From positions 3,339,922 through 3,403,921 of the forward strand of contig RPFO01000276.1 in NCBI GenBank assembly GCA_009746045.1: a stretch of 64,000 nt of DNA. The letters run 5' to 3'. Below are positions 323 to 64,000 of this stretch, piece by piece (position 1 is the first letter of the stretch; each line of letters starts with the position of its first letter). The DNA is from Mesostigma viride. Taxonomy: Eukaryota > Streptophyta > Mesostigmatophyceae > Mesostigmatales > Mesostigmataceae. The notes under the pieces are model-generated. The model saw only the letters and a program-made list of their open reading frames with translations, was not told the DNA's origin and searched no databases. Made by a program: the position numbers and the translations under genes.

Positions 323-3300
323 AGAGCGCCAAGAAGCTGTGGCGAACGGCCAGCACAGCCGGCCGGGCGTCAGTCTCCAAGGGTGCCCAGGCCCCTAGTG
401 CGGACAGCACGCCTGGTGACATCAGCAGCATTGATGACTTGCTGCCCAAGAGCTTCTCCATGCCCATGCTGCCCATGTGGACGTCGGAGCGGGCCACCAG
501 CCCGCTGGTACGGAGCGCTTCCCTGCACGTGTCTTGATGTCCTGTGCTTATCGCTCGTTGTAACTATTCTTAGCTGTCACTACATATCAAGCAATTGGCC
601 ACATGGTTTGCCATGCCTACTGCCGCCTGCAAGAGGCATGGCTGCTGTGCATTGTGCAAGGGCGATCCAAGTGGGCAAGGACATTCCTAGGAATTGGGCA
701 AGGCAGCATCGGATTGTGTATGATGCGAGAAGTCAGAACAGCCCCATGGCAGTGGCTATATAACTGGCCAGATACGGTGGCCATACCCACAGGGATGCAC
801 AATTGGGACGGTCATCACTACGGAGGGTGCTTCAGCCCGGCAATGCAGGCCTCCGGAATGTCATCATGGCGATCGAAAGAAGCACATGGCTATAACTTGA
901 TGGCTGGCAGAAGAGACGCCGTGTATGCAAATCACGCTTCCTCTTGTGTGTGGGCGCACTCGGGTTCATGTATAGGTGTGCGTGGTTGTGTGGCTACAGT
1001 ATGCTTGTCTTTGCATGTATAGGTGTGCGTGGTTGTGTGGCTACAGTATGCCTGTCTTTGCATGTACAGGTGTGCGTGGTTGTGTGGCTACAGTATGCCT
1101 GTCTTTGCATGTACAGGTGTGCGTGGTTGTGTGGCTACAGTATGCCTGTCTTTGCATGTACAGGTGTGCGTGGTTGTGTGGCTACAGTATGCCTGTCTTT
1201 GCATGTATAGGTGTGCGTGGTTGTGTGGCTACAGTATGCTTGTCTTTGCATGTACAGGTGTGTGTGGTTGTGTGGCTACAGTATGCTTGTCTTTGCATGT
1301 ACAGGTGTGCGTGGTTGTGTGGCTACAGTATGCCTGTCTTTGCATGTATAGGTGTGCGTGGTTGTGTGGCTACAGTATGCTTGTCTTTGCATGTATAGGT
1401 GTGCGTGGTTGTGTGGCTACAGTATGCTTGTCTTTGCATGTACAGGTGTGCGTGGTTGTGTGGCTACAGTATGCTTCTCTTTGCATGTACAGGTGTGCGT
1501 GGTTGTGTGGCTACAGTATGCTTGTCTTTGCATGTACAGGTGTGCGTGGTTGTGTGGCTACAGTATGCTTGTCTTTGCATGTACAGGTGTGCGTGGTTGT
1601 GTGGCTACAGTATGCTTGTCTTTGCATGTACAGGTGTGCGTGGTTGTGTGGCTACAGTATGCTTGTCTTTGCATGTACAGGTGTGCGTGGTTGTGTGGCT
1701 ACAGTATGCTTGTCTTTGCATGTACAGGTGTGCGTGGTTGTGTGGCTACAGTATGCATGTCTTTGCATGTACAGGTGTGCGTGGTTGTGTGGCTACAGTA
1801 TGCCTGTCTTTGCATGTTTAGGTGTGCGTGGTTGTGTGGCTACAGTATGCTTGTCTTTGCATGTACAGGTGTGCGTGGTTGTGTGGCTACAGTATGCTTG
1901 TCTTTGCATGTACAGGTGTGCGTGGTTGTGTGGCTACAGTATGCCTGTCTTTGCATGTATAGGTGTGCGTGGTTGTGTGGCTACAGTATGCTTGTCTTTG
2001 CATGTACAGGTGTGCGTGGTTGTGTGGCTACAGTATGCTTGTCTTTGCATGTACAGGTGTGCGTGGTTGTGTGGCTACAGTATGCTTGTCTTTGCATGTA
2101 CAGGTGTGCGTGGTTGTGTGGCTACAGTATGCTTGTCTTTGCATGTACAGGTGTGCGTGGTTGTGTGGCTACAGTATGCTTGTCTTTGCATGTACAGGTG
2201 TGCGTGGTTGTGTGGCTACAGTATGCTTGTCTTTTCATGTATAGGTGTGCGTGGTTGTGTGGCTACAGTATGCTTGTCTTTGCATGTACAGGTGTGCGTG
2301 GTTGTGTGGCTACAGTATGCTTGTCTTTGCATGTACAGGTGTGCGTGGTTGTGTGGCTACAGTATGCCTGTCTTTGCATGTACAGGTGTGCGTGGTTGTG
2401 TGGCTACAGTATGCTTGTCTTTGCATGTACAGGTGTGCGTGGTTGTGTGGCTAACAGTATGCCTGTCTTTGCATGTACAGGTGTGCGTGGTTGTGTGGCT
2501 ACAGTATGCCTGTCTTTGCATGTACAGGTGTGCGTGGTTGTGTGGCTACAGTATGCTTGTCTTTGCATGTACAGGTGTTCGTGGTTGTGTGGCTACAGTA
2601 TGCTTCTCTTTGCATGTATAGGTGTGCGTGGTTGTGTGGCTACAGTATGCATGTCTTTGCATGTACAGGTGTGCGTGGTTGTGTGGCTACAGTATGCTTC
2701 TCTTTGCATGTTTAGGTGTGCGTGGTTGTGTGGCTATAGTATGCCTGTCTTTGCATGTATAGGTGTGCGTGGTTGTGTGGCTACAGTATGCTTGTCTTTG
2801 CATGTATAGGTGTGCGTGGTTGTGTGGCTACAGTATGCTTCTCTTTGCATGTTTAGGTGTGCGTGGTTGTGTGGCTACAGTATGCCTGTCTTTGCATGTA
2901 TAGGTGTGCGTGGTTGTGTGGCTACAGTATGCCTGTCTTTGCATGTATAGGTGTGCGTGGTTGTGTGGCTACAGTATGCTTGTCTTTGCATGTACAGGTG
3001 TGCGTGGTTGTGTGGCTACAGTATGCATGTCTTTGCGTGTACAGGTGTGCGTGGTTGTGTGGCTACAGTATGCTTGTCTTTGCATGTATAGGTGTGCGTG
3101 GTTGTGTGGCTACAGTATGCATGTCTTTGCATGTACAGGTGTGCGTGGTTGTGTGGCTACAGTATGCTTCTCTTTGCATGTTTAGGTGTGCGTGGTTGTG
3201 TGGCTACAGTATGCCTGTCTTTGCATGTACAGGTGTGCGTGGTTGTGTGGCTACAGTATGCTTGTCTTTGCATGTACAGGTGTGCGTGGTTGTGTGGCTA

Positions 3301-7286: not shown

Positions 7287-7325
7287 GTGGGGGCGCGGCG
7301 GTTGGCAGTGTTGTATGTGTGTGTG

Positions 7326-7361
<36 letters not shown>

Positions 7362-10300
7362 TGTGCGTGTGTGTTCGCGTGTGGGGTGGGATGGGTCGAA
7401 GTGTGGGGTGGGATGGGTCGAAGGGGGGCGGGGAGCGGGGGGCAGGGGTTTGCTCTAAGCTCAGCGCTGTGGCCTGCCGCATGTCTCTGTGGATGGCTGG
7501 TCTCATCTTGTGGCCGCATGTCTCTGTGGATGGCTGGTCCCATCTTGCGTCCCCTTTTCATGTTGTGGCCGCATGTCTCTGTGGATGGCTGGTCTCATCA
7601 GTGTTCCTGGCTCCTTCATTCCCAGGCCCACTCTCTTTCGTGAAAGGGCGTGGCCAATGAACATTTTGTCTCACCAGCATGTGTGGGTTGCCAGAAGGGT
7701 CAAGTCCCAGTAAGAAGCGGGGAAGTAGCAGGTCTGTGCAGTCACAGTAGTTAATATCCCCGACCTGACATGCAGGTAGAAATGGATTCCAGTACTGATG
7801 GGCATTTTCCTGCTGACGAGCATCACCGACGAGAGTCTCTTTCACTGCGGCACAACGTAATTTACTTAATAGCTGCCTCCTGCTGCATCGCATATCCTTC
7901 CCCCCCTGCCAGGTAGCCACCCACTCGGAGGAGCGGCGGCAGGTGATGCACCACGCGTGGGCCATGGCGTGGCTCATCTTCCACTGCCTCAGCTGCGATA
8001 AACGGTTCCTTGACACGCTGCTGCACCAGAGTGAGTGGCCGCGTCGCAAGTAGCCAGCACGATGGGCCATGTGGGGAGTTCATAGGGTGCCCGCATGCCC
8101 CAGCATGGCCTGCACGCCCAGCATGGCTGATAGAACTTTGGCTGCGGTGTCAACCTACACCATCGCTACCACAGCATTCGGAATTGATATGGTTACAGGG
8201 GGCACTGAAAGCCTCTGTGCTAGTCCATGCGGCTACTCAAGTTTCACCAGTGCATCTGCTCGGCTGATGCCAGGATTGTGGCCAAGGCATCTTGGTTGCG
8301 GTCTTCACCGCTTGGCCGGGCGCGACGCTGGGGCCGCAGTGGACCGCAGAACGCGCACTCGCCATGAACCAGGCTGCGTGTATATGGGCGTGCATTATTG
8401 CACTCCATGGGATGTGTGTGGGAACAAAGCGACCTCATCATAACAGTGTTCCCCAGATTGGGGCAAAAGGCCTTCATGAAAGCTGCATGCCAAGCATGTG
8501 GTCCTGCTTCATGCCACGTGGACCAGTCCTTGAAGGGTGCGCGCACAGGATAAACAAAAGAACATGCTTGCTGTGTAGACTAGCTAGGCTGTTATGCTAC
8601 TGGGTCAATTGTTTGTGTGCTGGACCGATGTGTGTGCCACGTCGCCTTATGCCGCAGGCCACAGTTGATGCATTCTCCACGCTCGTGCCTACTCTGCATG
8701 GTGGTCTCCCTTTTCTTGCCACTCTGCCAGAGGAGGAAGAGTTCACGACTGCCAAGAACAAGATCCTGCATGAAGTGCTGGTAAGTCACCAGCCCTAGGC
8801 TTGCAGTGCTAGTTTTACAGTGCTGGTTGTGTCATGGATACTGCTATGAAGATGCTGCTGGGGGAGAGAGGCTGCTGAGCCTGTTGGGCTGTTTCTTTTC
8901 TTTGAACCTTTTACACTGTTGTTCTCTTGAGAGTTGCATGCTCTTTTGTGTGGGATGCTTGGTGCATTGTCATATCCAGACTATTTATTTATTCATTTGT
9001 TTATTTATTTATATTGTTATCCATCTCACCAAAAGATATATTAGAAAGATATATAAGATTAGGAAATGCACAAGGCTGGTCAAATTTTGTGTGCAGGCAG
9101 CATGCATGTCTCAAGCTCCCTTGTGGAAAAGTGTGGGTACGACTGCTTTTATGTCTTTGCACATGGAAGGGGTATGCTTGCGCTGCACAAATTGAGCCGG
9201 CTAGGGGCTCTTGTTGATGAGCTCTCGCTGGACTATCCCCGGCCCCCGCCGCCACCGCCGCCGCCACCACCCCCGCCACCACCACCACCACCACCACCAC
9301 CATCACCACCACCACCACCACCACCACCACCACCACCACCACCACCACCACCACCACCACCACCACCACCACCACCACCACCACCACCACCACCACCACC
9401 ACCACCACCACCACCACCATCATGCTTCCTTGTTGATTGATGCATACCTCTCCTTTTTTTTCTGCTTCTGCGTCCCTGCCCTTTGCAGTCGAAGGAGAAG
9501 GTCATTGTTCATGTGCTCACGCAGGAGACCGAGGCGTACAAACAGAAGAACAAGGAGTACCAGGCAGAGGTGAGGGATGCCAGAAGAACAAGGAGTGCGG
9601 GACAGAGGTGAGGGATGGCACAAGAACAAGGAGTGCAGGACAGAGGTGAGGGATGACACAAGAACAAGGAGTGCGGGACAGAGGTGAGGGATGACACAAG
9701 AACAAGGAGTGCAGGACAGAGGTGAGGGATGACACAAGAACAAGTGCAGGACAGAGGTGAGGGATGACACAAGAACAAGGAGTGCGGGACAGAGGTGAGG
9801 GATGACACAAGAACAAGTGCAGGACAGAGGTGAGGGATGACACAAGAACAAGGAGTACGGGACAGAGGTGAGGGATGACACAAGAACAAGGAGTGCGGGA
9901 CAGAGGTGAGGGATGACACAAGAACAAGGAGTGCAGGACAGAGGTGAGGGATGACACAAGAACAAGGAGTGCAGGACAGAGGTGAGGGATGACACAAGAA
10001 CAAGTGCAGGACAGAGGTGAGGGATGACACAAGAACAAGGAGTGCGGGACAGAGGTGAGGGATGGCACAAGAACAAGTGCAGGACAGAGGTGAGGGATGA
10101 CACAAGAACAAGGAGTGCGGGACAGAGGTGAGGGATGACACAAGAACAAGGAGTGCGGGACAGAGGTGAGGGATGACACAAGAACAAGGAGTGCGGGACA
10201 GAGGTGAGGGATGGCACAAGAACAAGGAGTGCGGGACAGAGGTGAGGGATGGCACAAGAACAAGTGCAGGACAGAGGTGAGGGATGACACAAGAACAAGG

Positions 10301-13300
10301 AGTGCGGGACAGAGGTGAGGGATGGCACAAGAACAAGGAGTGCGGGACAGAGGTGAGGGATGGCACAAGAACAAGGAGTGCGGGACAGAGGTGAGGGATG
10401 GCACAAGAACAAGGAGTGCAGGACAGAGGTGAGGGATGACACAAGAACAAGGAGTGCAGGACAGAGGTGAGGGATGACACAAGAACAAGGAGTGCAGGAC
10501 AGAGGTGAGGGATGACACAAGAACAAGGAGTGCAGGACAGAGGTGAGGGATGACACAAGAACAAGGAGTGCGGGACAGAGGTGAGGGATGACACAAGAAC
10601 AAGGAGTGCAGGACAGAGGTGAGGGATGGCACAAGAACAAGGAGTGCGGGACAGAGGTGAGGGATGGCACAAGAACAAGTGCAGGACAGAGGTGAGGGAT
10701 GACACAAGAACAAGGAGTGCGGGACAGAGGTGAGGGATGACACAAGAACAAGGAGTGCGGGACAGAGGTGAGGGATGACACAAGAACAAGGAGTGCGGGA
10801 CAGAGGTGAGGGATGGCACAAGAACAAGGAGTGCGGGACAGAGGTGAGGGATGACACAAGAACAAGGAGTGCAGGACAGAGGTGAGGGATGACACAAGAA
10901 CAAGGAGTGCAGGACAGAGGTGAGGGATGACACAAGAACAAGGAGTGCGGGACAGAGGTGAGGGATGGCACAAGAACAAGGAGTGCGGGACAGAGGTGAG
11001 GGATGACACAAGAACAAGGAGTGCGGGACAGAGGTGAGGGATGGCACAAGAACAAGGAGTGCAGGACAGAGGTGAGGGATGACACAAGAACAAGGAGTGC
11101 GGGACAGAGGTGAGGGATGACACAAGAACAAGGAGTGCAGGACAGAGGTGAGGGATGACACAAGAACAAGGAGTGCGGGACAGAGGTGAGGGATGACACA
11201 AGAACAAGGAGTGCGGGACAGAGGTGAGGGATGACACAAGAACAAGGAGTGCGGGACAGAGGTGAGGGATGACACAAGAACAAGGAGTGCAGGACAGAGG
11301 TGAGGGATGGCACAAGAACAAGGAGTGCGGGACAGAGGTGAGGGATGACACAAGAACAAGGAGTGCGGGACAGAGGTGAGGGATGGCACAAGAACAAGGA
11401 GTGCAGGACAGAGGTGAGGGATGACACAAGAACAAGGAGTGCGGGACAGAGGTGAGGGATGACACAAGAACAAGGAGTGCAGGACAGAGGTGAGGGATGA
11501 CACAAGAACAAGGAGTGCGGGACAGAGGTGAGGGATGGCACAAGAACAAGGAGTGCAGGACAGAGGTGAGGGATGACACAAGAACAAGGAGTGCAGGACA
11601 GAGGTGAGGGATGACACAAGAACAAGGAGTGCGGGACAGAGGTGAGGGATGACACAAGAACAAGGAGTGCAGGACAGAGGTGAGGGATGACACAAGAACA
11701 AGTGCAGGACAGAGGTGAGGGATGACACAAGAACAAGTGCGGGACAGAGGTGAGGGATGACACAAGAACAAGGAGTGCAGGACAGAGGTGAGGGATGACA
11801 CAAGAACAAGGAGTGCGGGACAGAGGTGAGGGATGACACAAGAACAAGGAGTGCGGGACAGAGGTGAGGGATGACACAAGAACAAGGAGTGCGGGACAGA
11901 GGTGAGGGATGACACAAGAACAAGGAGTGCAGGACAGAGGTGAGGGATGGCACAAGAACAAGGAGTGCGGGACAGAGGTGAGGGATGACACAAGAACAAG
12001 GAGTGCGGGACAGAGGTGAGGGATGGCACAAGAACAAGGAGTGCAGGACAGAGGTGAGGGATGACACAAGAACAAGGAGTGCGGGACAGAGGTGAGGGAT
12101 GACACAAGAACAAGGAGTGCAGGACAGAGGTGAGGGATGACACAAGAACAAGGAGTGCAGGACAGAGGTGAGGGATGGCACAAGAACAAGGAGTGCAGGA
12201 CAGAGGTGAGGGATGGCACAAGAACAAGGAGTGCAGGACAGAGGTGAGGGATGACACAAGAACAAGGAGTGCGGGACAGAGGTGAGGGATGGCACAAGAA
12301 CAAGTGCAGGACAGAGGTGAGGGATGACACAAGAACAAGGAGTGCAGGACAGAGGTGAGGGATGACACAAGAACAAGGAGTGCAGGACAGAGGTGAGGGA
12401 TGACACAAGAACAAGGAGTGCAGGACAGAGGTGAGGGATGACACAAGAACAAGGAGTGCAGGACAGAGGTGAGGGATGACACAAGAACAAGGAGTGCGGG
12501 ACAGAGGTGAGGGATGACACAAGAACAAGGAGTGCAGGACAGAGGTGAGGGATGACACAAGAACAAGGAGTGCAGGACAGAGGTGAGGGATGACACAAGA
12601 ACAAGGAGTACGGGACAGAGGTGAGGGATGACACAAGAACAAGGAGTGCAGGACAGAGGTGAGGGATGGCACAAGAACAAGGAGTGCAGGACAGAGGTGA
12701 GGGATGACACAAGAACAAGGAGTGCAGGACAGAGGTGAGGGATGGCACAAGAACAAGGAGTGCGGGACAGAGGTGAGGGATGACACAAGAACAAGGAGTG
12801 CAGGACAGAGGTGAGGGATGGCACAAGAACAAGGAGTGCGGGACAGAGGTGAGGGATGACACAAGAACAAGGAGTGCGGGACAGAGGTGAGGGATGACAC
12901 AAGAACAAGGAGTGCGGGACAGAGGTGAGGGATGACACAAGAACAAGGAGTGCAGGACAGAGGTGAGGGATGGCACAAGAACAAGGAGTGCGGGACAGAG
13001 GTGAGGGATGACACAAGAACAAGGAGTGCGGGACAGAGGTGAGGGATGGCACAAGAACAAGGAGTGCAGGACAGAGGTGAGGGATGACACAAGAACAAGG
13101 AGTGCGGGACAGAGGTGAGGGATGACACAAGAACAAGGAGTGCAGGACAGAGGTGAGGGATGACACAAGAACAAGGAGTGCGGGACAGAGGTGAGGGATG
13201 GCACAAGAACAAGGAGTGCAGGACAGAGGTGAGGGATGACACAAGAACAAGGAGTGCAGGACAGAGGTGAGGGATGACACAAGAACAAGTGCAGGACAGA

Positions 13301-31620: not shown

Positions 31621-31624
31621 TGCG

Positions 31625-34380: not shown

Positions 34381-34399
34381 TGTATTGCATGTATTACTC

Positions 34400-35100: not shown

Positions 35101-35282
35101 TCAGATGACCATGGGACCTGGTGCACAGTTGGTAGTCATGAGCATCAGTCTCCTTGCAAGCAGCCAGGCCAGGAGCTCTTTATTTGCATATTATACGGGA
35201 TTTGTTTATTGTAAAACCTGAAATTTTGCTAAAATAGATGTGCCAAAAATAGACCAACGAGGTCAGAAAAATCTGGAAAGTT

Positions 35283-36285: not shown

Positions 36286-36286
36286 A

Positions 36287-38840: not shown

Positions 38841-38849
38841 GCCATGCCC

Positions 38850-41150: not shown

Positions 41151-41155
41151 CCAAG

Positions 41156-41161
41156 TATAAA
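41156..41161 (+). promoter_or_regulatory. TATA-like box upstream of gene B exon 1
   Basis: TATAAA in AAGTATAAAGCC lies 47 bp before the ATG at 41203. That ATG sits in a good context (CCTGCCATGG). This implies a very short 5' leader if the box is used. Confidence 0.45.
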
Positions 41162-41202
41162 GCCTGTTGATAGCATAATACTAGGTCCACAGGAGACCTG
41201 CC

Positions 41203-51200: not shown

Positions 51201-54200
51201 CTAGCCAATGCCCCTCCCCTAGGATCTTCTGGACCGCAGTTGCGGCCTCCTTTGGGGTGCATCCCTCCCTGGCTTCTTGCTTGAGCTTTGCTATGAAATT
51301 CCGCTCTGGGGCTGTCACTGAGGTCATGGTGGGTTATAATGCTTGATGTGTTATATTGCGTTTTGTTTTTTGTGATGTGGTCACTTGAGGTTCTCAGGCA
51401 AAAGAAACAACCTGCTTCCCTAGAATGGAAGCCCACCTTTATAGCAACCACCTCTCCAGCCAACCCCTACCTGGGTGGCTGGGGTACGGGTGCCAGCACA
51501 AAAAATATTTTTTCTAAAATTATTTTTTCTTTTGGTGCTATACGGCGTTGCATTCTCCGCTCAGCAGGTTAGTCATAGATAAAATGAGCATAGCTCACCA
51601 ATTATGTGGTACCTTGACACCTGGAGCGTGGCCGTGGGGGCCACACCTTTGAATCACATGGCAAGCTTTTGAGAGAAAAGAGGCTGTTGGTGCCTGTGAG
51701 CATGTATTGAAATAATGGTAAGAGTGTTTTTCTTGTTGTTTTCCAAGTGCGCTTGTGGAGGTTATGGATGGTGGCCTTTCTACATTGGGTGGCGAGGCTT
51801 GAAATAGGAGCTTCCAGGGTTTGTGATGATAGTATTTGCAAATGAGCCATACCAAAGCTTGCACATTTCGTACAGTCGCGAAACTCTGTAGACAGGGCGC
51901 CAGGGTGAAGGCTCAATCGGCATCCTTCCTCCTTGCCACAGGAGCCAGTTACCCAGCGGTGGCATCAACACTTCCTTTGAAGCGCACCTTTCCTGATTTT
52001 GCTATGGTTGGTAGCCCTGCGTGCACTCGACAAACAGGCATCCCCAGTACTTGTCCATGCCCTAGCACGTCAGAACAAGGCAGCTGTTGCAACTGAGTTG
52101 AATCCTCAAGGCCTCTAAATCATCCACAGGCCACCCCATCCCCTTTTTTGTAACCCATGCTCCTATGTGGTGGCCAACGGATTGACAGGCGCTGACCAGG
52201 AGAAAGGTCCCAACCCGCATGCCCCTGGGACAGCTGATCATGAGGTGTTTGAGCAGAGGAGAAAGGGCAAAGAGTACCAATTTTATGATGGGACACCAGA
52301 AAGGGGGGTTGGCTCCAGGGCTGCCGGCTTATACCTGGGTACGGAACTGCTTGTGATTTCCAAGATGCGAGGCGGGATGGTCTGCGAGCTGCGGATGGTG
52401 AAGGTGGGTAGCGGCCCTCCTTTGTTCCCCCACTTGTCCCCCCAGTCATCTCCCCATTTCTCCCGTGTTTATCCCCTCAGCCGCCCCCCCCCCCCCCACA
52501 GAGGCATGATTCTGCCAGCCTTCATGTCCCTTATTTTGTACGCTCATGAGAGGCATAGCCGAAATGAAAAATCCCTATGCCCTGATGAAGTCTTGATGAC
52601 GAAGAACGCTGGCTGCGACCACGGTGCTCAAGAGATGCCTGTTTTTTTGCAATGTGCCAGCAGCTTCATAATGAGTAGGCTGTTTTGGGATAGTTGCCCA
52701 TCTCTCGTGCTTGTTGGGTTGGAGGATGATTGATGTGCAGGGATGTAATGTTGTCTGGGTGAAATGAGGTCAGGGTGGCCGGGGAACCGGATGCAAGAAT
52801 TTGATTTGTTTGAAGGACCAGGCAAGCTGACAACCGGTCAGGGCTAACCAGGGACGCGCCGTTTCTTGAACTATAATTGCTGTGCCAATGGTTCTGTCTC
52901 ATGCAGGAAGAGCTTGGCCGGCAAGAGTCAGCGGTTGCCCAGGGCCGGACCAGCTTTCACCAGGACAAAGCTTGGTATACAAGCGAGGTGTTTGAGCGAC
53001 CAGCCGGGAATTACGATGACAGTTTCATTACGTCCCCCCACCTGACCAAGTGCGGGTCCCTGGTGCAACGCATCATGGACATGGAGGCCAGGAGCGACCA
53101 CTTCACTGTCCTTGTCATCAGCTCTCTCATCCCTGAGCGTGCCAAGCATCTGATGAGTGAGGCAGATGAGTCTGCCTTCTACAGTTTGTGCCGGTGAGTC
53201 GCCTTCTACAGTTTGTGCCGGTGAGTCGCCTTCTACACCTTGTGCCGGTGAGTCGCCTTCTACACCTTGTGCCCGTGAGTTGCCTTCTACAGTTTGTGCC
53301 GGTGAGTCGCCTTCTACACCTTGTGCCGGTGAGTCGCCTTCTACAGTTTGTGCCGGTGAGTCGCCTTCTACACCTTGTGCCGGTGAGTCGCCTTCTACAC
53401 CTTGTGCTGGTGAGTCGCCTTCTACACCTTGTGCCGGTGAGTTGCCTTCTACACCTTGTGCCGGTGAGTCGCCTTCTACACCTTGTGCCGGTGAGTTGCC
53501 TTCTACAGTTTGTGCCGGTGAGTCGCCTTCTACACCTCGTGCCGGTGAATGGCCTTCTACACCTTGTGCCGGTGAGTTGCCTTCTACACCTTGTGTCGGT
53601 GAGTTGCCTTCTACATCTTGTGCCCGTGAGTTGCTTTCTATCTGTTGTGCCGGTGAATGGCCTTCTATGCCATGTGCCGCTGATCGCAATGGGCTGACCA
53701 TGTACCCACTACCCATTCACTGGTCAGCTGCCAAAGAGATTTGCAGCCATTTTCGAATGGTCACATTGCCTGGTAAGATGGATTTAGTGGGCGCACAATT
53801 GCATCTTTCACTATCACGCAGCTGGCGCGTGTTGAGAAATATATATATATTTAAGAAAGTCAAGTTCTGTGAAAAAGAAACTGCTGCTTTAGGGGGAAAC
53901 AGTTGAACTGTTATGTGGAGTTAGGCAAGGCTGTTTGGTGGATATTTTGAATGACCCTTTAATGCTCTCTTTCTTATGTACGGCTAGTTTAGTACGGATT
54001 CGTCTCTATGTACTCAGGCAGGGTAGGCCCCATTAATCAGAGGATACATCTGTATGTGATCAGAAGAGGCACTAGTTACAATAGAAGTGTTTCCAATGCC
54101 TGCTTGCAGCCTACAGCTGTTTAAGTTTTTGCGGCTGTTTTTCTCCTGTTTGATGCTGGCATGGATCTAGAAGATATGCTCCGCTACTGGACATAACGGT

Positions 54201-57200
54201 TTACCCCCAACATATGTCCTGGCATGAGCATGATGGGCCCTATGCTGCACGTATTTCGGCATGCTTAATTCACCGCGGCAAGCCTTGTGAGATGGGCTGC
54301 GGTCATGCACCTTGCGTGCCTGCAGGCACGTGCGCCAGATATATTTCTTTTTTCTCGATCTCGGAGACAAGAAGTATGTGGGCGGCCCAGTGGAGTTCAC
54401 CGCCGAGTTTGTGCGCATCAAGCGGGGCAACGGGAAGGAGCTGTACCGGCGAACGTGCCTCTTGCACGACAAGGACTTGGCGTTTCCGAGTCAAGAGGGG
54501 GAGGGGGCTAGTAAACCAGTTGCGCCAGATATGACCGTGGACCGCTACAGCCAGCTGCAGAAGTGGGCCATCAAGTGTCCAGATGGCACCCTGGAGGCCT
54601 TCGAGTTCAGCGTCGCCTTATTCAGCTCCAGCGAACTACACCACTACGGCAGTGAAATCAAGGTGACGATGAGTTGATTATCTTACAGGCTTGCCACACC
54701 TGGCGCGATTGTTGATGACACTATACTACTATAACGTTACCACATGCAAGGATGGCGTGTCCAGCGTATACCGGAGTTTGGTGCCTCTGTCAGGGCAGTA
54801 GCTAGTTAGCGCATGTTCCTATACCGCTCAATGCTTACCTGAAGTCCTTGTGTTGCGGTTATGACTTTGTAGAGGCACTTATACCATGAAGAGTGACCTC
54901 TACTAAACAGGCACATTCATTATGCTGTTGAGCAATCGAGGAAATCTGTTTATAAGTGGGGGTGTTTTCCTACTAAAACGTTTTGGTTTTCTTCTATGCA
55001 ACGCAGGCGGTGCCACCAAGCAAATGTTGTGGCGCGCTTCTGCTGTCTTGGTCACAATGCCACGCTCTGTTGGCCGTTGCTTTCCCACCAACTCCTCTCT
55101 CATCATCCATAGTCCATATGTGCAGAAGACTTGCACTCTTTGATTATTTCCAGGCATCCAAGTTGGCCAAGCCACAGTCCTCATCTCAATTATAGCTTAA
55201 AGCAGACGGGTAACTACCAGGGCCCTTAGATAATGTTGATTAAGAGAGCGACCATCTCTGATAGGATAAGATGACAGCACATGCTATTGTTGGAAGGAGG
55301 TGGCCACCGGTAGTTTCCAGCAATCTTGCTATCATAGCCTTTTCTCGGCCGTCCTAATGATCTTGGGGGGGTCCCCACTGTCCCCTCCGTCTCACTTGTT
55401 CTGTTGTGAAAAATAAACTTGCAGTGCTGTCCCGCGTATCATGATCCCCGCGTACTATATAGTTCCTCCAGTGCTTTCGTCCTGATGGTTTACTTACAAA
55501 CTCTGACATTGCCTGATTGCTTGTACCTGGATATGCATACCTATCCGCTCCGTCGGCCCAGGTCCTTCTCTGGTACCTGCCCTCTTACCGCATCGACACA
55601 CTGAAGAAGGTGGACTGGCCCCTGGAGCAGCAGCTGGCCGTGCTGTACAATGGGCGGGGCATGCCCTATGAGTTTGTGCCCAGGTGGGGCAGCCAGTTCG
55701 GTAGATGAGGTAGCATATGTACCAAGGTAGAATTTTGGTGCACATTATTGGACTTCAAGGGATTATTGGGTCTTTGAGGCATGGATTGGTGTTGAAGCAA
55801 ATTTTTATCTGTTTGTGCTAGTGCATGCGTAGCCCTACCTCCATGCCTCAGCTGTGGCATGAGTTTCTTGCAGCCCCTTAATGCCAGCTGGTCCATCTGC
55901 TCGCCCTTGCGGTCGCCTTCCCTCCTTCAGTATACAATACTGTATTCGCAATGGACAAGATGAATTATAGATGATAAAAGCCATGCGGACCTTGCGGTAG
56001 GGGCTGGTTGACTGCCGGCCTTCTCAAGCCAGGTCATGTAGCGGGACCTCTGCACGATCCAGCTGGTGGAGAAAGCGTCCATGCAGAGCAGCAGCTCTGT
56101 GTATCCCCCCAAAGATCACGGCTATCGTCCCTACGGATATAGTACATAGATTCTTGAAGTCCCCCCTTCGGTTTGCGAGCAAGTTTGGTCTAGATTCCTC
56201 CTCAGCCATGGATTTGACCCCAACTTACCTACACGTCTTGGTGGTCCTCCGTTCTCCTGTATTGAATCTCGTTTCGTACAACTTCTTTTACTTGCACCAA
56301 TTTGTGGGTCGATGCTCCGTGGTGCCGACAGCATCCTGCTCCTCCTGCCCCTGCTGGGTGTCAAGGCGGTCCACGACCCCTCGCTGTATGCCGACCTGCA
56401 GCGTGTGCGCGGAGTCATCTTTGTCGGTAAGAGCCCGGCCGTCCATCGCACTAAATGGAGCCTGGACCCACCACTGGCGCAGGGCCTGGAGCACTTCCTA
56501 CAGTCCAACCACCGCGAGGGGTTGACAGAGCCGGGGGTATGGGGGCGCCTTCTCCACTGGCTGTATCGCTGCCGTGAGGCCGAAAGGAAGGTGAGATGAT
56601 GCACCCTTTTTCTCTTCTTTTTTCTAACAGGGTTGGCATGTGCATGCCTTCATGAGAGGCTACAACCGTGGTCATATAGGCAGGTACAGTAGGCTTTCTT
56701 TCAAGCCATCACGGGAGACGATGGTGGAGGGCCACCGGTGCAGCCATGCCGCTGCCTTGACGGGCGAACCCCACCCGCAGCCATCGTGTGTGCATACGGA
56801 CAGGCCAATCTAGGAGTATATTGAGGATGTCATTGCGGGAAGGTCAGCTGCGGAGTGCAAGGATGTTTGACAACCTCCTCTTTGCGGCGCTGCTCCATAT
56901 TAATCCATGTTACGTATTAATTGCCAGCATCGGCTGAACTTAAGCACTGCAACTTTGGCATTCCACCGGCTCCTCAACCCCACCCCACCTACCGTAGTTG
57001 ACGTTCCATAGGAGGCTCCATCTGATGCATCCACTGCCATTTGAGCTCGTTGTTTAAGTTTTCGGCGGGAAACAGGCTGGTGTGTGCCCAATGCCTGTAT
57101 GAGTGGCATGGCCAGCGCCCCTTGCCGTGTGGCTGTCAAGTGTGAGTGGAGCACAAAACTTCATGGCTTCGATAACCACACGACTTAGCCGAGGAGGCTG

Positions 57201-59377
57201 GTGAGGATCATTAGGTGGCGCTCGCAGCATGTTATCAGGTGCCGTGGGAGCTGCTGCCAGAATCTGTGACAAGCTCGCAGCTTGTCAGCACGCGTCCTCC
57301 AATACTAGTATCCCTTACTCAGGTTACTATATTATGCCAGCTGTGTGCTGCCGCTTGCCTTACGTCTTTGCACACTCCTCATCTTGTTCCCCTCGACCTG
57401 TCTGTGGATGCCCATCAGCTGGACGCGGTGACCCTCAGCATGCCGTTCCCCGAGCTCCCCCTCAAGCAGCTTGAGGGCTTGCTGTATCGGGAGATGGTGT
57501 GTGGAAACACGACCAAGTACACCGCGGGGATGAAGGTGGTGGCCAGGGTCAAGGGGCGCCTGGCAGATGCGCCGCTAACCATTGTGGGGACCATTGTGGC
57601 GTTCAAGCCCCAGCGAGCCAAGCTGGGCGCGGGCGGCTTGTCGTACGAAGGGGTGCACAAGGGAGAAGGCAAGGAGGACGTGGCCGCTGGCGGCGAAGGG
57701 CTTCACAGCGAGGAGAGCGCGTTGGAGTGTATTGTGTACTTGCAACGCGAGCCCCAGGCCACCATCGCCTCCTCAGAGGGCGGGATCCGGTCACCCCACC
57801 TGTGGGAGGTGTCTTCCAGGTACGTCTAGAAGGCAAAATAGCTAGGGACATACTCCTGTAGTGCGATGTCTTGCTATTGAGCTCCACACGTTGTATTCAG
57901 TAACAAGACAGGCATTCGTTGGGCGCTCCGACGGTCAGCGAGCAGATGAAGTGCAGCTGGGGTGTCACCATTACTGCCGGCAGCTGGCTGGACCGCCCCC
58001 TTTGGGACCTTTTGCGTTGTAAGCATAAACTAAAAATATCTCACCCAAGGTATCTTGGGGTGGGCGTGTGGAGACATAAACTGTGGTCTTCATCGCAGCA
58101 TAGCTTGGTGGACATCTTGATATACTTTCGGCACTGTCTGGTTCCCGCAGGGACTTGCGAGAGGACGAGGACCCGGAGGTTTGCCTAGTGAAGGAACGGG
58201 CCAACGTCCCCACCGCGCTGATCCCAACGAAAGGCTCGTCGTGGCCCGGGCCCATGCTGGCGTGCCACCAACCGCTGGGGCATCCGGATGACAGTTCAAC
58301 GCGCTTGACGGTGGCAAGTGCGGCGGGGCCCAAGGCGCCAGTGAAATGGGCGATGTGGCAGCAGGTAACTTGCACAGGAGTTGGGAGTAGCTGTCAGCAG
58401 GTGAGTTCTGGCGGTATATAGCGGGGGACGTGGCAGCAGCAGGTGCAAACGCGGCATGATATGGGAGCAGGAAAAGACATGTATGCAGGCTGGCAACATT
58501 AGGCGGGCTGGTTGGTGGAACTTGATCAAGTCCAGGTTTCCCCGAGCAACCTGTGCATGCCCATGCGTTTCATGACACGGGCGAGAGGAAAATCCTTAAA
58601 TATCTTGTCATCATGCGATGTGCGCGTGATGGCATCCATCAGGTCGAGGTATGAAGAACTGGTGTCTGTCAATTAGAGGCATTAAGACGGACATTTTGAG
58701 CAGACAACGCATGCGGGATTAACGAAGATTGACATCATTGTTTGCATACCTTTTGTACGGTCTGACATGTGTAATGGTGGTGACGTGGTTGGCTTGTTGA
58801 AAGGTAAAAGAACACAGCTTGCCCCCCCGTTCTGTCTCTTATGCTAGGGACTCTGCTCCACGCTTCCTCGGTTCCCGCACCATGGTTGCATGCCTACTTG
58901 GTTGCGTGCCTGCTTGGTGGCATGCCTCCTCGGTTGCATGCCTTGGTCCTAGCAGAACGCCACCAAGCCATGCATCCCAAAGGTCATGCGCCGAGTGTTC
59001 TTCCAGGGAGCAGCCACCACCGGTGATGGCGGAGCGGCCAGCGGCGAGCGCGAGCTGGCCTTCTTGGCCATGTCATCCGACGCATCCGCTGATTCACCGT
59101 CAGACTTTGTGTTCCCAGGATTCGTCGTGCACCAGCCAGGCTCCTACCGGATCGAGTATTCGCTGGCAGAGCCCCGGATACTGTGGTGGGAGGAGCTACC
59201 CCGGCCGGTCTACCATGCCCAGTTCCTCGCTGTCGGTGGGTCAAGCCGTGCTTTGAGAAATCCCCAATAGCCCCAATGCCCACCATAATCAATCTCTCAA
59301 TGCACAAGCCTCGCGTGTGATGGCGTACGTCTTGAGTGGAAACCGAGGGGATGCACGGAGGGGCCTATGGAGCAGAG

Positions 59378-59423
<46 letters not shown>

Positions 59424-59441
59424 ATGTGTGTGTGTGTGTTC

Positions 59442-59472
<31 letters not shown>

Positions 59473-59534
59473 TGGGTGGGTGTGTGTGTATGTGTGTGTG
59501 TGTGCGTGTGTGTGTGTGTATTTGTTTGTGTGTT

Positions 59535-59580
<46 letters not shown>

Positions 59581-62500
59581 GTGCAGTCAGACGGGGTTAA
59601 CAGGGGGTGCCTGATTGGCCTGCTTGAGTTGAACCATTTGATCTCATGCTAGTTCTCCGTTTCTTTACAACCATGCGATTCTCATGCTTGGCCTCCCCAC
59701 CTGGCATCGCTGCCTTGCTGATTCTTGCAGCCGGCCCTCCCAGGTCCTTTGACCTCGACTTCCCCTCCCTGCTGCGCCTGCCAGCCCCTGGTGCCAACGC
59801 CCAATCCCGCACCCTGCCTGGCGCGCGGCTGAATGAGCCCTTTGAGGTTGTTCTCCACTTCTTCGACACTGACAAGACAGCACAGGACGGTGCGAAGACC
59901 AGCCGCAACGCTTGCACCCAGTTTGACCCTTCTGAGCTGCATCTCAGGGTGTCAGCAGGGGGTCATGAAGACCAGCTGTGTGTGGTCCAGGCACAAGTGG
60001 TGGGGTCTGAAAGCGCCAGCGGGAAAGGCCAGCCTTTGCGTGCTATGGTGCTGCTGACTCGTGCCGAGGCCGACCGCCCTGCCAGAGTACCGCTGAAGGG
60101 TACCGAGCAGGCTGTCACGTTCACCCTGAAAGGACCTGGGCAGGCTTGCCCCCCTTTCCAGCAGCAGCTGCTATTGCTTCCTGGTGAGTATCCTTAACTA
60201 TGTGTCCACGTTGCATAATGGGGAATAGGAACTGATGGAATAGGAATTCTGACGGCGTTAGCGCAGCTATAGGGAACCACACTAGAACTTTACGTTCATT
60301 TGTTAATGGCAAACCAGACATGTTGTAACATCAGGTGTAACAGGTACTGCCCTAAGTGCCATGTGTCTGTATCCACCACAACGGGGACCATTGGAGTAGA
60401 TGGTGACCGGCTTGTACGCAGCAAGTTCAGGTCCTAGGTGCACAGTCTCGTAAGTGAAATCATTTATATCATATCTACCTGCACAGTGGCTGCTTTCTTT
60501 GTCCAGTTTCTTCTCTGCTCGTTGATATCTGCGGAGCAATTTTACCTCGGCTATGATTAACAAATGAAAAGTAAGCTTGTCAAGCAAGCAAGACCCCTGC
60601 CAAGTTCGGTGAAGTACGTACTGCTCCTGTGTACTAGAACTTGGACGTGGCAAGATGTTAGGGCCAGTCAGTTTTATTACGGGTGTTTGGTGAAAAAAAT
60701 CTCTTGACTACCGTGCATGGTGTGTTTACACGATGCCGTTGAGCCATCGTACAGATGACCCAATGGTATCTGTTTACATGGCCCAAGCGTGGCTGTCTTA
60801 GTGGTCTCTGCTGCAGCTCACGTTCCGACGCGCATCGAACATAACCCTAGTATGCCGTGCTTGAATAAATAATTGCAGCGCCAGCCACATGGGTATGCTA
60901 CCAGGGTGCGTAGTAAAGCAGGAGTGCTTTTGTTGTCTGTATGTGCATTTAGTGGTGCTGTGGTCGCTGTGACCCATGTACTTCTTGTTCGCTACAAGGG
61001 CATCACGGATGTGGAAATGAATGTTTCGGTATGTGGTGCCATGTCACACAGCAAGCGTGGAAGGCTGTACATGACTAGCAGGGTTTCCAGGATTTTTGTT
61101 GCTCGGGAATTCTCGCTAATCCCTTGTGTTAGTGCTTCCTGTTGATTTCATGGGTGCTTTACATGCATTATATTTGTGCACGCACTACTGCGTTATTGCG
61201 ACAAAAAGTCTCTGCCTACAACGCACTGCGTTGTAGCATTGTACAGTGCACCACGTTGCTTACGCTGGCCGTAATAAGCGAGATAATGCCGGGCCTGATT
61301 CCCCCCCTCCCCCCTTGTGATTGTTATCAAGCTGGTGCCTGCCCCCCCCCCATGAGGGCTACAACGTTTTTTCTTTGCAAAGCAGAGCGAGGAGAGCTAT
61401 TGTTGAATAGTCTTAACTCCAAGTTCATGTCCTTGTCATGATTGTGTAACACCCAACCCGTGCCATCAAGCAGGCCCAGCGGCACCACAAGCGCCAGTAG
61501 ACGCGGGTGACTCTGACTTTGTGGGGCTGGAGGGCGTGAAGCAGGTGGTCAACCGAGAGACGTCCCTCTACTTCAAGGTGCGTTTCCACGACTCGGAAGG
61601 CAATGAGACGCGCTGCTTCCCTCCCCAGTCGCTCGTGAGGCTGCTCGTCACAAGCCCAAGGGAAGAGCCTGGCGAGCCAGGCACCGAGCTCATCGTTCTC
61701 GTTTCACGGTCCGCACAGTTCAGGGATGATGGCACGCTTGGCATCATCGACACCTCCACAACAGCAACAGCCTGCAAGGGGGAGATCTTCCTAGATGATG
61801 ACGGCGACATTGCTGTTCGCGGCCTGAAGCTGAGCCTGGACTTTTCTCAGCGCTCCTCCCGTCCCGACCAGGCGGCGTCCATCTGGGTGTCCCTGGACGT
61901 GCCTATTACGTTGGGGCAGGCTGGCCGGGCTGGAGCACAGCAAGGGAAGGATTCGGCTGGTCAGCATGTAGACCACGCCAGGATCAGCAAGATGAAGACC
62001 ATCCATGTGCGCCCCAGCGGCTGCCCCAGCAGGGTGCATCTCTGCTCGCTGGAAGGCGGCGTTTGGAAGCTCATGCGCTCCACGGGTGAGGCGAGTCCCG
62101 GCATTGACACCAGCATCGCCAAGTACCAGCTCCCGCCCATCATGGCAGGGCAGAGCCTTCCAAGGGTGGCTCTACGGGTCGAATCGGAAGCCGGGGAGAG
62201 GCTGGTGGGGCCCGTCATGGAGGGGAAAGTGGAACGGGCATCGAAGGCAGGGCAGGCGACGCCCAGCTCGTCTGGTTGGGACTTGCAGTACAAGATCGTG
62301 GCGGCAGGCAGCACGTACACATCTACGGCCGCAGTCCCTAACGATTGCATCCTTCCAACGCTCACGCTACCCCACCGTGCGGGTCGGCACGTTATCGAGG
62401 TAAAGGTCAAAGGATGGCCAAGGGAGCCTCCCCCCGATGGTGGTGGTAGTCAGCCCATGGCAGGCAGGCCCCTGTCAGGCAGCAGCCGGGAGGCGGGGCT

Positions 62501-64000
62501 GAAGCGGAAGATCCTTCTGGTGGCCGTGGTGGAGCCAGGTGAGCCATCTTATCATCCCAGGGTTCCAGGGTCGCTGTCAGAGTAGCTGTTATAGGGTCAG
62601 GAAGTTGTGGCTGTTGTCAAGTTGTAGCCGTCATCGGGACCAGCTGTTGTGGCTGTTGTCAAGTTGTAGCCGTTATTGGGACCAGCTGTTGTGGCTGTTG
62701 TCAAGTTGTAGCCGTCATTGGGACCAGCTGTCGTGGCTGTTGTCAAGTTGTAGCCGTCATCGGGACCAGCTGAGATATTGCCTCTTCCCAAGCATACATA
62801 CCCTTGGGCGCGGTGGGGATAGCTCTACCAGGCAATAGTAATTGTTTTATTGCCCGTGGAACACAGGGTAACCAGACTCTTCAGAGAACCGCGATAACAT
62901 GGCGTACTTCTTTCTGCCCCCTGCAAGCCATGGGTTGTAGCTGGGGGCAACTAGACCATTATCGATGTTCATTCCAATTCGCTTTGCATGGCATGGTTGC
63001 CCGTGGGGTGCGCGCAGGTCCCCACGCCAAGTGGTCGGTGATTGCAATCCCTCGCCAGGCGCCGCGGGAAGAGGAAGCGACGCTCGCCACGCAGCAGGTC
63101 ATCCCCGGTGCAGATGCTTGCCCCCTTGGCGGGCCACCCAGGCTCACCCTGGGCCACCCGCTGTCAACATCTGGACTCGCACTTGTGCCGTTAGATGCGT
63201 TCGATAACTGCGTGCCCATCCAAGATGCCCCCACATTGCGGGTGGTCCCCCGAGGGGCAGGCGAGTGTGGACCAGAGGCGGTCACGTTCTTGGCAGAGCC
63301 GTTGGGTGGCATGGACGTTGATAGTGGCCCACAGACATACCACAGTGACCCGCCGGGGCACGGGGGAGCCATGTCTTCAGATGAGGAGGCAAGGCCCATG
63401 GACACCCTGCCAGGGGGATACCTGCGCCAGGTCAGCGGCGGCTCGGGCCAGCCCAGTGGTGGCTACTTTTGCTTCCGCAGCGATGCAGAGGTGTACCTGT
63501 ACCGGCAGGAGCCGGTCTTCCCATCGCCAACCTCACGCACGGGAGAAGGGAGAACGGGGCTGTTGCCATCAGCGGACTATGCGCTGGAGATCTGCAGCGC
63601 CGGCGACTCCCAGGTCATGTCCAGGGTGGACGTGGAGATCTCGAACCCCAGTGCCGTTGCCTCCCCCGTCACCGTCCGTGTCCACGGGATGCCACTCAAG
63701 CACCTGATGTGCTGGCAGGAGATGAGCGGGATATGGGCAGAGGTCCGGGTGACCCTGCCTGGGGGGTGCAGCGTCCGCTTGTTGGACCGCTCGATCCAGC
63801 ATGTGCGACTGGAGGCCGCGAGCCCTGGGCTCGTGCTGGTCAAGAGGGACTGCCCGCTGTTCCCCGCGCTGTCTGCACGGCTGGAGCGAGGTGACGCCAG
63901 GGTCTGTGGGGAGCTGGGTGCAGCAGCGCAGCAAGGGGGGACAAGTGGGAGTGTGCCAGCATCAACTCCAGCGGTGACTTCCCCAGGACCGGTGTATGCA
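41203..64000 (+). CDS. Gene B: SMCHD1-like GHKL ATPase / chromatin protein (3' partial, 16 exons)
   Basis: Exons: 41203-42247, 42365-42403 (tentative), 43484-43555, 44621-44754, 45483-45621, 52189-52403, 52907-53193, 54326-54662, 55562-55683, 56332-56590, 57419-57819, 58151-58364, 58983-59235, 59731-60183, 61474-62538, 63018 to past the window end. Phases agree at every junction from 43484 onward. The N-box EPIDN, G1 box DNGAGM and G2 box RGVGSRAAG appear in order, as in GHKL ATPases, followed by [27 protein letters not shown], a [10 protein letters not shown] segment and a long beta-rich tail, the order I know from SMCHD1 (a noncanonical SMC protein in heterochromatin silencing). MORC and plant GMI1/DMS11-type proteins are the alternatives. 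The SMC hinge, if present, lies outside the window. Introns 43556-44620, 44755-45482, 54663-55561, 55684-56331, 56591-57418 and 60184-61473 show nothing notable. Confidence 0.82.
42248..42364 (+). repeat. Intron built of 31-bp tandem copies of the exon 1 donor
   Basis: Potential donors GTATG/GTATT lie at 42248, 42279 and 42310, exactly 31 bp apart, each after AG(C)AG-type exon-like sequence. A fourth diverged copy (from 42341) supplies CCTCGTGTTTGCAG, the acceptor at 42364. Confidence 0.85.
42365..43555 (+). CDS. Gene B exons 2-3 (tentative)
   Basis: Exon 2, 42365-42403, is 39 bp; the phase-consistent reading is [13 protein letters not shown] more protein-like reading ([13 protein letters not shown]) would need the second donor at 42278 and an acceptor at 42339, and then breaks phase with exon 3, so the structure is unsettled. 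Exon 3, 43484-43555, reads [20 protein letters not shown] and joins in phase to [19 protein letters not shown] of exon 4, giving a natural lead into the ATPase. Confidence 0.45.
42412..42597. repeat. 33-bp minisatellite, about 5.5 copies
   Basis: Units of the type GGGTGCTATGTATATGGG plus TTATCGTGACATGGT begin just after the tentative exon 2 donor (42403). The [11 protein letters not shown] frame is a repeat artefact. Confidence 0.92.
42598..43483. other. Gene B intron 2 remainder with a 27-bp-class repeat
   Basis: Nothing coding is seen. At 43312-43470, five to six imperfect copies of ATGCACCTTATGCATGC plus TCTTGACAA precede the exon 3 acceptor. Confidence 0.75.
43785..43905. repeat. GTCAGGC-type short repeat, gene B intron 3
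   Basis: Seven or eight copies of (T)GTCAGGCA(C/T) with alternating spacers. Non-coding. Confidence 0.85.
44621..53193 (+). CDS. Gene B exons 4-7: GHKL ATPase domain
   Basis: Exon 4 (44621-44754): [20 protein letters not shown], with the catalytic Glu and Asn of the N-box (E-P-I-D-N). Exon 5 (45483-45621): [20 protein letters not shown], with the Asp and Gly residues of the ATP-binding G1 box. Exon 6 (52189-52403): [20 protein letters not shown] and [13 protein letters not shown], the lid/G2 region. Exon 7 (52907-53193): [20 protein letters not shown]. Exon 5 ends in phase 1 and exon 6 starts with the two bases needed (acceptor AG at 52187-52188), so splicing over the 6,567-bp intron that holds the retroelement restores the frame. 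All three nucleotide-binding motifs are intact, so ATPase activity is plausible. Confidence 0.85.
45622..45853. other. Left remnant of gene B intron 5
   Basis: Short ancestral intron sequence between the exon 5 donor and the retroelement. Nothing recognised. Its counterpart is 51602-52188. Confidence 0.7.
46059..46073 (+). other. G-quadruplex motif in the A3-B3 linker
   Basis: GGGTGGGTGGGTGGG, four G-triplets with one-base loops, is framed by CTTTTGCC and GGCAAAAG, which can pair. The same motif recurs at 46488-46502. Confidence 0.85.
46488..46502 (+). other. G-quadruplex motif in the A2-B2 linker
   Basis: Second copy of the G-triplet motif with the same flanking inverted octamers. Confidence 0.85.
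47102..48885 (-). pseudogene. RNase H and tyrosine recombinase of the DIRS-like element (frameshifted)
   Basis: RNase [14 protein letters not shown] (Asp near 48572), [16 protein letters not shown] (Glu), [12 protein letters not shown] (Asp), [12 protein letters not shown] (Asp near 48125). Tyrosine recombinase: [17 protein letters not shown] (box I Arg near 47612), then in a second frame [14 protein letters not shown] (His and Arg near 47312-47323), QLRGRWAS and VTRYIGL (nucleophile Tyr near 47217). All catalytic residues are visible, but a one-base shift near 47405 (at FR|GLTYSQ) stops the first frame at 47395. Another shift near 48885 separates this part from the polymerase. Confidence 0.88.
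48828..50132 (-). pseudogene. Reverse transcriptase of the DIRS-like element (frameshifted)
   Basis: The open frame runs from 50030 to 48828. Palm motifs: [17 protein letters not shown] (first Asp near 49453), [14 protein letters not shown] (motif B) and [13 protein letters not shown] (paired Asp near 49060; T-I-D-D in place of the usual Y-x-D-D). The true start is probably upstream ([20 protein letters not shown], 50132), cut off by a run of about 13 C at 50058-50071. A single-base shift near 48885 breaks the link to RNase H. Confidence 0.85.
50227..51327 (-). pseudogene. gag-like ORF of the DIRS-like element (frameshifted)
   Basis: Starts [20 protein letters not shown] at 51327 and keeps one frame to 50803. 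A middle piece ([37 protein letters not shown]) lies in another frame, and the first frame resumes by 50589 ([20 protein letters not shown]) and ends QGGPSNNNK. About 366 residues if intact. The Gly/Pro-rich middle and the lack of zinc knuckles fit gag-like ORFs of DIRS elements, but I recognise the role only from position. Confidence 0.65.
51397..51601. repeat. Left split repeat A1 of the DIRS-like element
   Basis: Matches A2 (46503-46710) and A3 (46074-46283) from AGGCAAAAGAAACAACC to AGCTCACCAA. The outer flank (TATGTGGTACC) is unique, marking the element boundary. Confidence 0.93.
51602..52188. other. Right remnant of gene B intron 5
   Basis: Ancestral intron sequence between the retroelement and the exon 6 acceptor. 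No repeat or coding feature. Without the element the intron would be about 820 bp, typical of this gene. Confidence 0.7.
53173..53690 (+). repeat. 27-bp minisatellite of 18 extra copies derived from the exon 7 donor
   Basis: The exon 7 end CCTTCTACAGTTTGTGCCG plus the intron start GTGAGTCG forms a 27-bp unit, repeated 18 more times with small changes (ACACC for ACAGT, GTGAGTTG, GTGAATGG). In the exon frame each unit carries TGA right at the donor, so use of any downstream donor would truncate the protein. The long frames through it are artefacts. The rest of intron 7, to 54325, shows nothing notable apart from a short TA run. Confidence 0.96.
54326..57819 (+). CDS. Gene B exons 8-11: region after the ATPase (transducer-like)
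   Basis: Exon 8 (54326-54662): [20 protein letters not shown] and [20 protein letters not shown]. Exon 9 (55562-55683): [20 protein letters not shown] and [19 protein letters not shown]; the NGR-x-x-PY pattern matches my memory of SMCHD1. Exon 10 (56332-56590): [35 protein letters not shown]. Exon 11 (57419-57819): [37 protein letters not shown]. These follow the ATPase in the SMCHD1 order and probably form its transducer and adjoining domain. All phases fit (2 to 1-base start, 0, 2 to 1-base start, 0). Confidence 0.8.
58151..64000 (+). CDS. Gene B exons 12-16: long beta-rich (Ig-like) region, runs off the window
   Basis: Exons 58151-58364, 58983-59235, 59731-60183, 61474-62538 and 63018 onward encode about 1,000 residues of alternating hydrophobic strands and loops: [86 protein letters not shown]. 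Repeated pieces that read like G-x-Y-x-I/L-E/F strands fit tandem Ig-like folds as in SMCHD1. The last exon is open to base 64000. No hinge or coiled coil is reached. Confidence 0.75.
58350..58445 (+). repeat. Repeated exon 12 end and donor
   Basis: TGGCAGCAG|GTAACT (real donor, 58365) is followed by TGTCAGCAG|GTGAGT (58401) and TGGCAGCAGCAG|GTGCAA (58443), spaced 36 and 42 bp. Confidence 0.75.
59381..59578. repeat. (GT)n microsatellite, gene B intron 13
   Basis: About 200 bp of GT dinucleotides broken by a (GC)n patch near 59442-59456. Spurious Cys-Val frames only. Confidence 0.97.
62605..62775. repeat. 42-bp minisatellite, four copies, gene B intron 15
   Basis: Units of GTAGCCGTCATCGGGACCAG followed by CTGTTGTGGCTGTTGTCAAG. 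The [13 protein letters not shown] frame is an artefact. The rest of the intron, to 63017, shows nothing. Confidence 0.93.

Follow-up and report, generated by a model that had tools for sequence, protein, structure and literature searches.

In amphioxus, tandem duplications that extend over exon-intron boundaries have been described as "mirages" in the Adh3, TnC and PGBD5 genes and in the globin genes BflGb6 and BflGb9 (PMC3087553; PMC3902484). The accessible text of these papers reports repeat units of 10-160 bp in which splice sites are copied at both 5' and 3' boundaries while splicing is apparently undisturbed, and it was found to contain neither a frequency among introns nor a comparison with intron interiors (PMC3087553; PMC3902484). 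A looser parallel is provided by paralogues in human segmental duplications, for which the accessible text describes minisatellites of about 30 bp across exon-intron boundaries that alter splicing; these cases are of recent primate origin, and the repeats are often exonic and alternatively spliced (PMC2812944).

The DNA analyzed here, referred to as the window, is a stretch of 64,000 nucleotides of nuclear DNA from the streptophyte green alga Mesostigma viride (positions 3339922-3403921 of contig C1324). Several of its introns begin with arrays that are of the same kind as the amphioxus mirages: as in amphioxus, the repeat unit spans the exon-intron boundary and contains the splice site, and with 27-145 bp it lies in the minisatellite range. 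Unlike in the animal, the strong arrays of the Mesostigma sample occur at 5' boundaries only (none at 75 acceptors, where about one is expected), they comprise up to about 148 copies, and one of them multiplies the donor of a GC-AG intron. In contrast to the human paralogues, the copies lie within introns, and the models seen show an unaltered protein. The lineage, the frequency, the bias towards donors and the GC-AG example are new. A sequence-only reading of the window, which was aware of no described system with this signature, overlooked the amphioxus mirages (PMC3087553; PMC3902484, both as far as accessible). Among the matches listed in a literature search, no such repeats were reported for Mesostigma or green algae. 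The arrays add a second, very distant lineage to what had been a lancelet curiosity, and they are frequent enough for statistics.

Gene models and intron set

The published M. viride genome comprises 441.8 Mb with 66% repeats and a mean intron length of 1142 bp, according to the accessible part of its description (PMC6947507). The window contains two genes (Table 1), whose exons were placed by hand and, for the most part, recovered again by a small HMM trained on the same genes. Hand and HMM models together yield 33 donors, to which the deposited protein model P0001 adds the exon ending at donor 9570, giving 34. Two exon starts, that of the second exon of gene 1 and one near 8731, were placed approximately, and residues 1-22 of P0001 belong to an exon upstream of the window that was left out of the test. 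Joining the 13 exons of gene 2 produces no stop codon. A Pfam scan of the two window proteins submitted, gene 1 being represented by its scanned part only, gave no match.

The statistical comparisons are based on 75 introns with a total length of 84.8 kb, 32 from the window and 43 from elsewhere on the contig, in 15 gene models that were picked by exon quality while arrays were disregarded. Coverage amounts to about 354 kb out of a single contig of 4.4 Mb. The 43 outside introns represent the fairer test, since the window was chosen for showing the pattern. Donor 27277 is outside the set because the exon following it was not identified, and the case from a 20-kb stretch selected blindly (region C) is outside it as well. 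Removal of low-complexity queries left 73 of the 75 donors and 72 of the 75 acceptors in the alignment test. In the SBBP beta-propeller gene, the first intron of the model conceals an exon of P0003 that tblastn failed to place; its GC donor was corrected by hand for the first-copy alignment and intron-gain tests and stands uncorrected in the tests of TRF straddling, relocation and G excess. First-pass comparisons had given self-matches of score ≥14 at 14 of 146 donors versus 4 of 149 acceptors for all HMM exons, and array coverage, weak arrays included, at 18 of 195 donors versus 7 of 201 acceptors for the unselected HMM set. Both sets were replaced by the 75 introns because transposon and repeat ORFs were mixed in.

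Arrays at the donors of the window

Six of the 34 donors clearly precede copies of their own exon end and donor (9570, 21888, 22529, 27277, 42248 and 53194), and donor 19921 is a seventh, weaker case. This is close to the six clear and two weaker cases among 36 donors counted in the sequence-only reading, whose periods of 27, 31, 37-38, 38, 46, 63 and 75 bp are likewise recognizable. In a Smith-Waterman comparison of positions -30 to +10 around each of 33 donors with up to 1 kb of its own intron, donors 21888, 22529, 27277, 42248 and 53194 ranked first with scores of 16-34, while the best of 31 acceptors reached a score of 14 at rank 2. Donor 19921 scored only 12 at rank 3, and donors 58365, 8781 and 60184 (score 13) did not rise above the range of unrelated donors.

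Table 1. Genes, donor-associated arrays and other repeats in the window and elsewhere on the contig; a slash marks the exon-intron boundary, and scores with ranks are from the Smith-Waterman comparison
Feature	Position	Strand	Description
Gene 1	323..27276	+	Function unknown; P0001 = Mv08465 (jgi/Mesvir1); 21 exons entered the test
Interior array, intron 1	967..4023	+	47 bp x65; no copy of donor 508; ordinary background minisatellite
Gene 1 exon	9489..9569	+	Identical to P0001 residues 445-471; ends at donor 9570
Array at donor 9570	9542..15124	+	TRF, 148.2 copies; exon tail + GTGAGGGATG
Weaker array straddling donor 19921	19887..20048	+	46-bp period x3.4; TRF score 156
Duplication straddling donor 21888	21864..22008	+	75 bp; score 24, rank 1; TRF; second copy ...TTCTACCACACCATGATCAGGGTGGT
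Donor 22529 and copies	22515..22793	+	ATGGACCG/GTGAGG; score 16, rank 1
Hexamer array, gene 1 intron	24458..25210		(GGGCGT)n, 126 copies
Donor 27277 and copies	27257..27395	+	Two degenerate copies (~27326, ~27370); score 16, rank 1
Gene 2	41204..63890	+	13 exons entered the test; continues past the window end; partial relative P0002
Copies of exon end and donor 42248	42234..42314	+	31-bp period; TRF; score 16, rank 1
Recent tandem duplication, 7.4-kb intron of gene 2	45853..46906		428-bp unit x2.5, 99% identity
DIRS-like retroelement frames, gene 2 intron	47102..51466	-	RT and recombinase-like stretches, recognized by eye
Array straddling donor 53194	53162..53687	+	27-bp unit x19; TTTGTGCCG/GTGAGT; score 34; TRF
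bZIP gene	outside window		...SELEKRVSMLQ/GTGAGG, then three copies at 36 bp
FBXO9-like gene	outside window		70 bp x3.4; copied donor mutated, GTGACG to TTGACG
SBBP beta-propeller gene	69612..77341 (joined sequence)	-	GC-AG donor GGGAATCAG/GCAAGT, 17 copies of 47 bp

The largest array, at donor 9570, extends over 5.6 kb and occupies most of a 6.5-kb intron. As P0001 contains the preceding exon exactly, this minisatellite can be recognized as the amplified exon end and donor. Its units are spaced by 38 bp in 130 instances and by 35 bp in 16; they are nearly identical throughout, with two clearly variable positions, and the donor bases are unchanged in all 131 aligned 38-bp units. At donor 53194, GTGAGT is retained in 16 of 18 aligned units and replaced by GTGAAT in the other two. 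The copies of donor 22529 comprise a 38/75-bp array at 22548-22717 and others near 22713 and 22780; since the TRF array begins 20 nt within the intron, this donor was left out of the straddling count.

In the deposited model P0001, the junctions belonging to donors 9570, 19921, 21888 and 22529 fall on the first copy. Donor 27277 lies beyond the end of the P0001 match, and no deposited protein model was found for the gene of donors 42248 and 53194. The intron at donor 9570, in which about 148 donor copies are intact and nearly identical, offers a natural test of exon-proximal 5' splice-site choice.

Cases elsewhere on the contig

Arrays of this description were found in 8 of the 75 introns at a TRF score of ≥100, in addition to those at donors 22529 and 27277, which were recognized by alignment, and the one in region C. 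Outside the window they occur in a bZIP gene, an FBXO9-like gene and the SBBP gene (Table 1). The first two names are recognitions from the sequence, and the name SBBP comes from the search for relatives of its protein. The protein model of the SBBP gene, P0003 (Mv08454), joins ...DFLGNQ/VPVT at the first GC donor, so that gene models indicate the use of the first copy at five donors in total (P0001 and P0003). Among 120 listed of 862 matches, the other relatives of P0003 are bacterial where the organism is named, and a horizontal transfer of this gene is possible as judged from sequence similarity.

Within the blindly selected stretch C1324:500001-520000, 1 of 10 HMM introns, some others of which look doubtful, is composed of exon tail and GTAAGT in three 145-bp copies, the third copy having its donor mutated from GTAAGT to CCAAGT. 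One more apparent match, at about 185-186 kb in the joined sequence, probably represents a transposon or a spurious exon and was not counted. Across all cases, the periods of 27, 31, 36, 38, 46, 47, 70, 75 and 145 bp show no reading-frame preference. The pattern recurs in the FBXO9-like, bZIP and SBBP genes and in the blind stretch; the suggestion of a genome-level process was examined on about 354 kb of one contig.

Donors compared with acceptors, exons and intron interiors

Of the introns examined, about one in ten opens with a tandem array of the adjoining exon end and donor. Arrays with a TRF score of ≥100 straddle 8 donors and no acceptor in the 75 introns, where the 24 interior arrays predict 1.1 for each. 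Stricter TRF settings gave 5 donors and 0 acceptors versus an expectation of 0.95, and a score threshold of ≥50 gave 8 donors and 1 acceptor, with 1.8 predicted. When arrays were relocated within their own introns, the 8 donors observed compared with 0.95 expected, a number as high being reached in 0 of 5000 shuffles; for the 43 outside introns, 3 were observed versus 0.37 expected (P 0.0038; P 0.004-0.03 with other settings). The complete lack of acceptor arrays, in contrast, is no significant depletion, about 1 being expected there (P 0.39).

The sequence-only reading had proposed to compare self-matches at donors with those at acceptors and at random exon positions, and an excess at donors emerged in each comparison, as it did against intron interiors. 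By alignment, the donor lies in the first copy in 8 of 73 cases compared with 2.0% of interior points (P 1e-4), and, outside the window only, in 3 of 42 cases compared with 1.9% (P 0.047), while 0 of 72 acceptors lie within a last copy. When the boundary is scored for a first or last copy, the donor is positive in 9 of 74 introns and the acceptor in 0 of 75 (Fisher P 0.0014). The first-copy rate rises from 0% at offsets -60 to -35 (none of 216 exonic points at 35-60 nt from the donor) over 2.1% to 7.7% at -15 to +6 and 8.6% at +6 to +26, and then declines to 5.0% at +26 to +60 and further to 2.2%, 1.6% and 1.9%, background being reached by 60-150 nt. The mirror test at acceptors (-15 to +6) was negative at all 146 points. 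Donors thus firmly exceed acceptors and exons, and the excess over intron interiors is moderately firm.

A laxer control, in which any intron point was compared with the next 800 bp at a score of ≥16, whatever the order of the copies, gave 5 of 33 donors versus 38 of 355 interior points in the window and 4 of 74 versus 90 of 823 upstream, so that donors were not clearly above the interior; exon points reached this score in 1 of 164 cases in the window and in 20 of 820 upstream, repeat ORFs being included in the latter. In this control, interior and donors are similar because long arrays supply many points, and only a comparison of array births or of first copies reveals the donor excess over the interior.

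The 3' ends of introns are perhaps somewhat array-rich too, as weak arrays (score ≥50) end within 60 nt of an acceptor in 13 cases versus 6.4 expected (P 0.008), though strong arrays never cross it. For arrays with a score of ≥100 the corresponding numbers are 3 and 2.1, and the last-copy rate at 26-60 nt before the acceptor is 4.0%. With regard to strand composition, arrays with a score of ≥100 show a strong sense-strand G excess where they lie in the first third of an intron (11 of 12, mean skew 0.41), but not where they lie in the last third (2 of 9).

Possible origin of the arrays

The straddling geometry, the focus on donors, the lack of any strong array across an acceptor and the first-copy joins in two protein models would all be accommodated if the arrays are minisatellites that originated from donor-straddling duplications and persist because the first donor is kept, with tolerance and a mild local hotspot both contributing. 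We assign this reading a probability of roughly 60%. In this model, a small tandem duplication of 27-145 bp would have its source segment across the 5' splice site, and the spliceosome would stay on the exon-proximal first donor, turning the new copies of exon tail and donor into intron. As the first donor is still used and the copies fall within the intron, they would be nearly harmless and leave the protein unaltered. Some duplications would remain at two or three decaying copies, while others would grow into homogeneous arrays of up to about 148 copies, presumably by unequal exchange or slippage. A duplication across the 3' splice site would instead place a copy of the AG ahead of the real acceptor and would presumably be purged. 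An additional AG with an exon head before the true acceptor would be expected to do harm. Depending on the measure, duplications are observed about 4-8 times as often at donors as elsewhere in introns. Better detection would account for a part of this, and the remaining excess suggests a mild hotspot, perhaps tied to transcription or splicing, for which the evidence comes from few events.

The contribution of a hotspot would be dispensable if duplications arose uniformly in transcribed DNA, those in exons and at acceptors being purged and those at donors being tolerated and, in addition, more readable. Indeed, intron interiors are full of arrays (79 with a score of ≥50 in the 84.8 kb), while the exon and acceptor-boundary points are free of them. 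Moreover, a donor duplication with one copy protected by coding selection could stay detectable for twice as long, and with a background doubled accordingly the excess outside the window is not significant (P 0.22). The pooled donor excess, however, persists against the doubled background (P 0.008). Some donor arrays, such as the one at 9570, are young and homogeneous, so that a slower decay confers no advantage in their detection. A filter without any hotspot is a possible explanation of the data, albeit on the unlikely side. Such an advantage in detection explains up to about 2-fold of the excess, and the remaining 2- to 4-fold may reflect a hotspot or, in part, chance.

The opposite emphasis would make 5' splice sites of M. 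viride true hotspots of tandem duplication, where break repair or template switching at the junction, involving a paused polymerase or U1-bound nascent RNA, would continually give rise to minisatellites at donors, let introns grow at the 5' side and spare acceptors; we regard this stronger form as rather doubtful. Slippage or break repair primed at exon-intron borders, as proposed in the sequence-only reading, is compatible with the results, though uniform duplication, selection and better detection explain a good part of them. A cause in the donor sequence is unlikely: donor-like motifs occur in interior arrays at chance level (2 of 54 in sense and 3 of 54 in antisense orientation versus 3.2% in shuffles), and the motif itself is therefore not what duplicates. 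Likewise, sense-strand G excess at the 9 mirage donors, the GC donor being misplaced, is not significantly above that at the 66 others (P 0.10-0.20), which leaves R-loops unsupported as a cause. If it holds genome-wide, the donor bias would tie the birth of minisatellites to transcription or splicing and imply directional intron growth.

It is conceivable that the arrays are maintained by selection, the extra donor copies binding U1 snRNP and thereby aiding exon recognition or shielding the pre-mRNA from early cleavage. The intact donor cores at 9570 and the prevalence of GTGAGT at 53194 would agree with this. As the other positions of the unit at 9570 vary hardly more, however, recent homogenization suffices to explain its intact donors. 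The copied donors are mutated in the FBXO9-like gene and in region C, and the mirage donors as a group, except for the misplaced GC donor, do not score below others. Selection for the arrays is very improbable.

Intron gain by tandem duplication of an exonic AG/GT segment, reportedly put forward by Rogers and by Gao and Lynch, resembles the present case in that a segment with a donor-like site is duplicated in tandem, and such duplications place copies of the exon junction in introns. For amphioxus globins, the accessible text puts forward a related route (PMC3087553). Relics of this process, in which the intron end should match the exon end and the start of the next exon the start of the intron, showed neither match in any of 10 introns (the SBBP acceptor was used 3 nt off); unlike gained introns, those of Mesostigma apparently lengthen from the 5' end. 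Intron gain is therefore rejected for the ten introns tested and, although older, eroded cases are possible, hardly credible as a general origin. An assembly or gene-model artefact can be dismissed as equally improbable, since two deposited protein models concur on the joins at five donors and the copies of the two- and three-copy duplications have diverged, which speaks against assembly doubling, even though assemblies can mis-size long tandem arrays and the gene models are partly home-made.

Introner elements represent a multiplication of intron sequence in green algae. The copies described here differ in that they are local and derived from the adjoining exon; the one stretch searched genome-wide (22450-22760) had a single match in 440 Mb, namely itself. 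Separately from the donor arrays, a module, GTTGCGACSGCCGGCGTTTCT, was absent from 334 kb in two other regions when up to 3 substitutions were allowed. Its eight occurrences lie upstream of one gene and within that gene's introns, at about C1324:513350-518030, and its distribution suggests that it is possibly an intron-shared, introner-like sequence.
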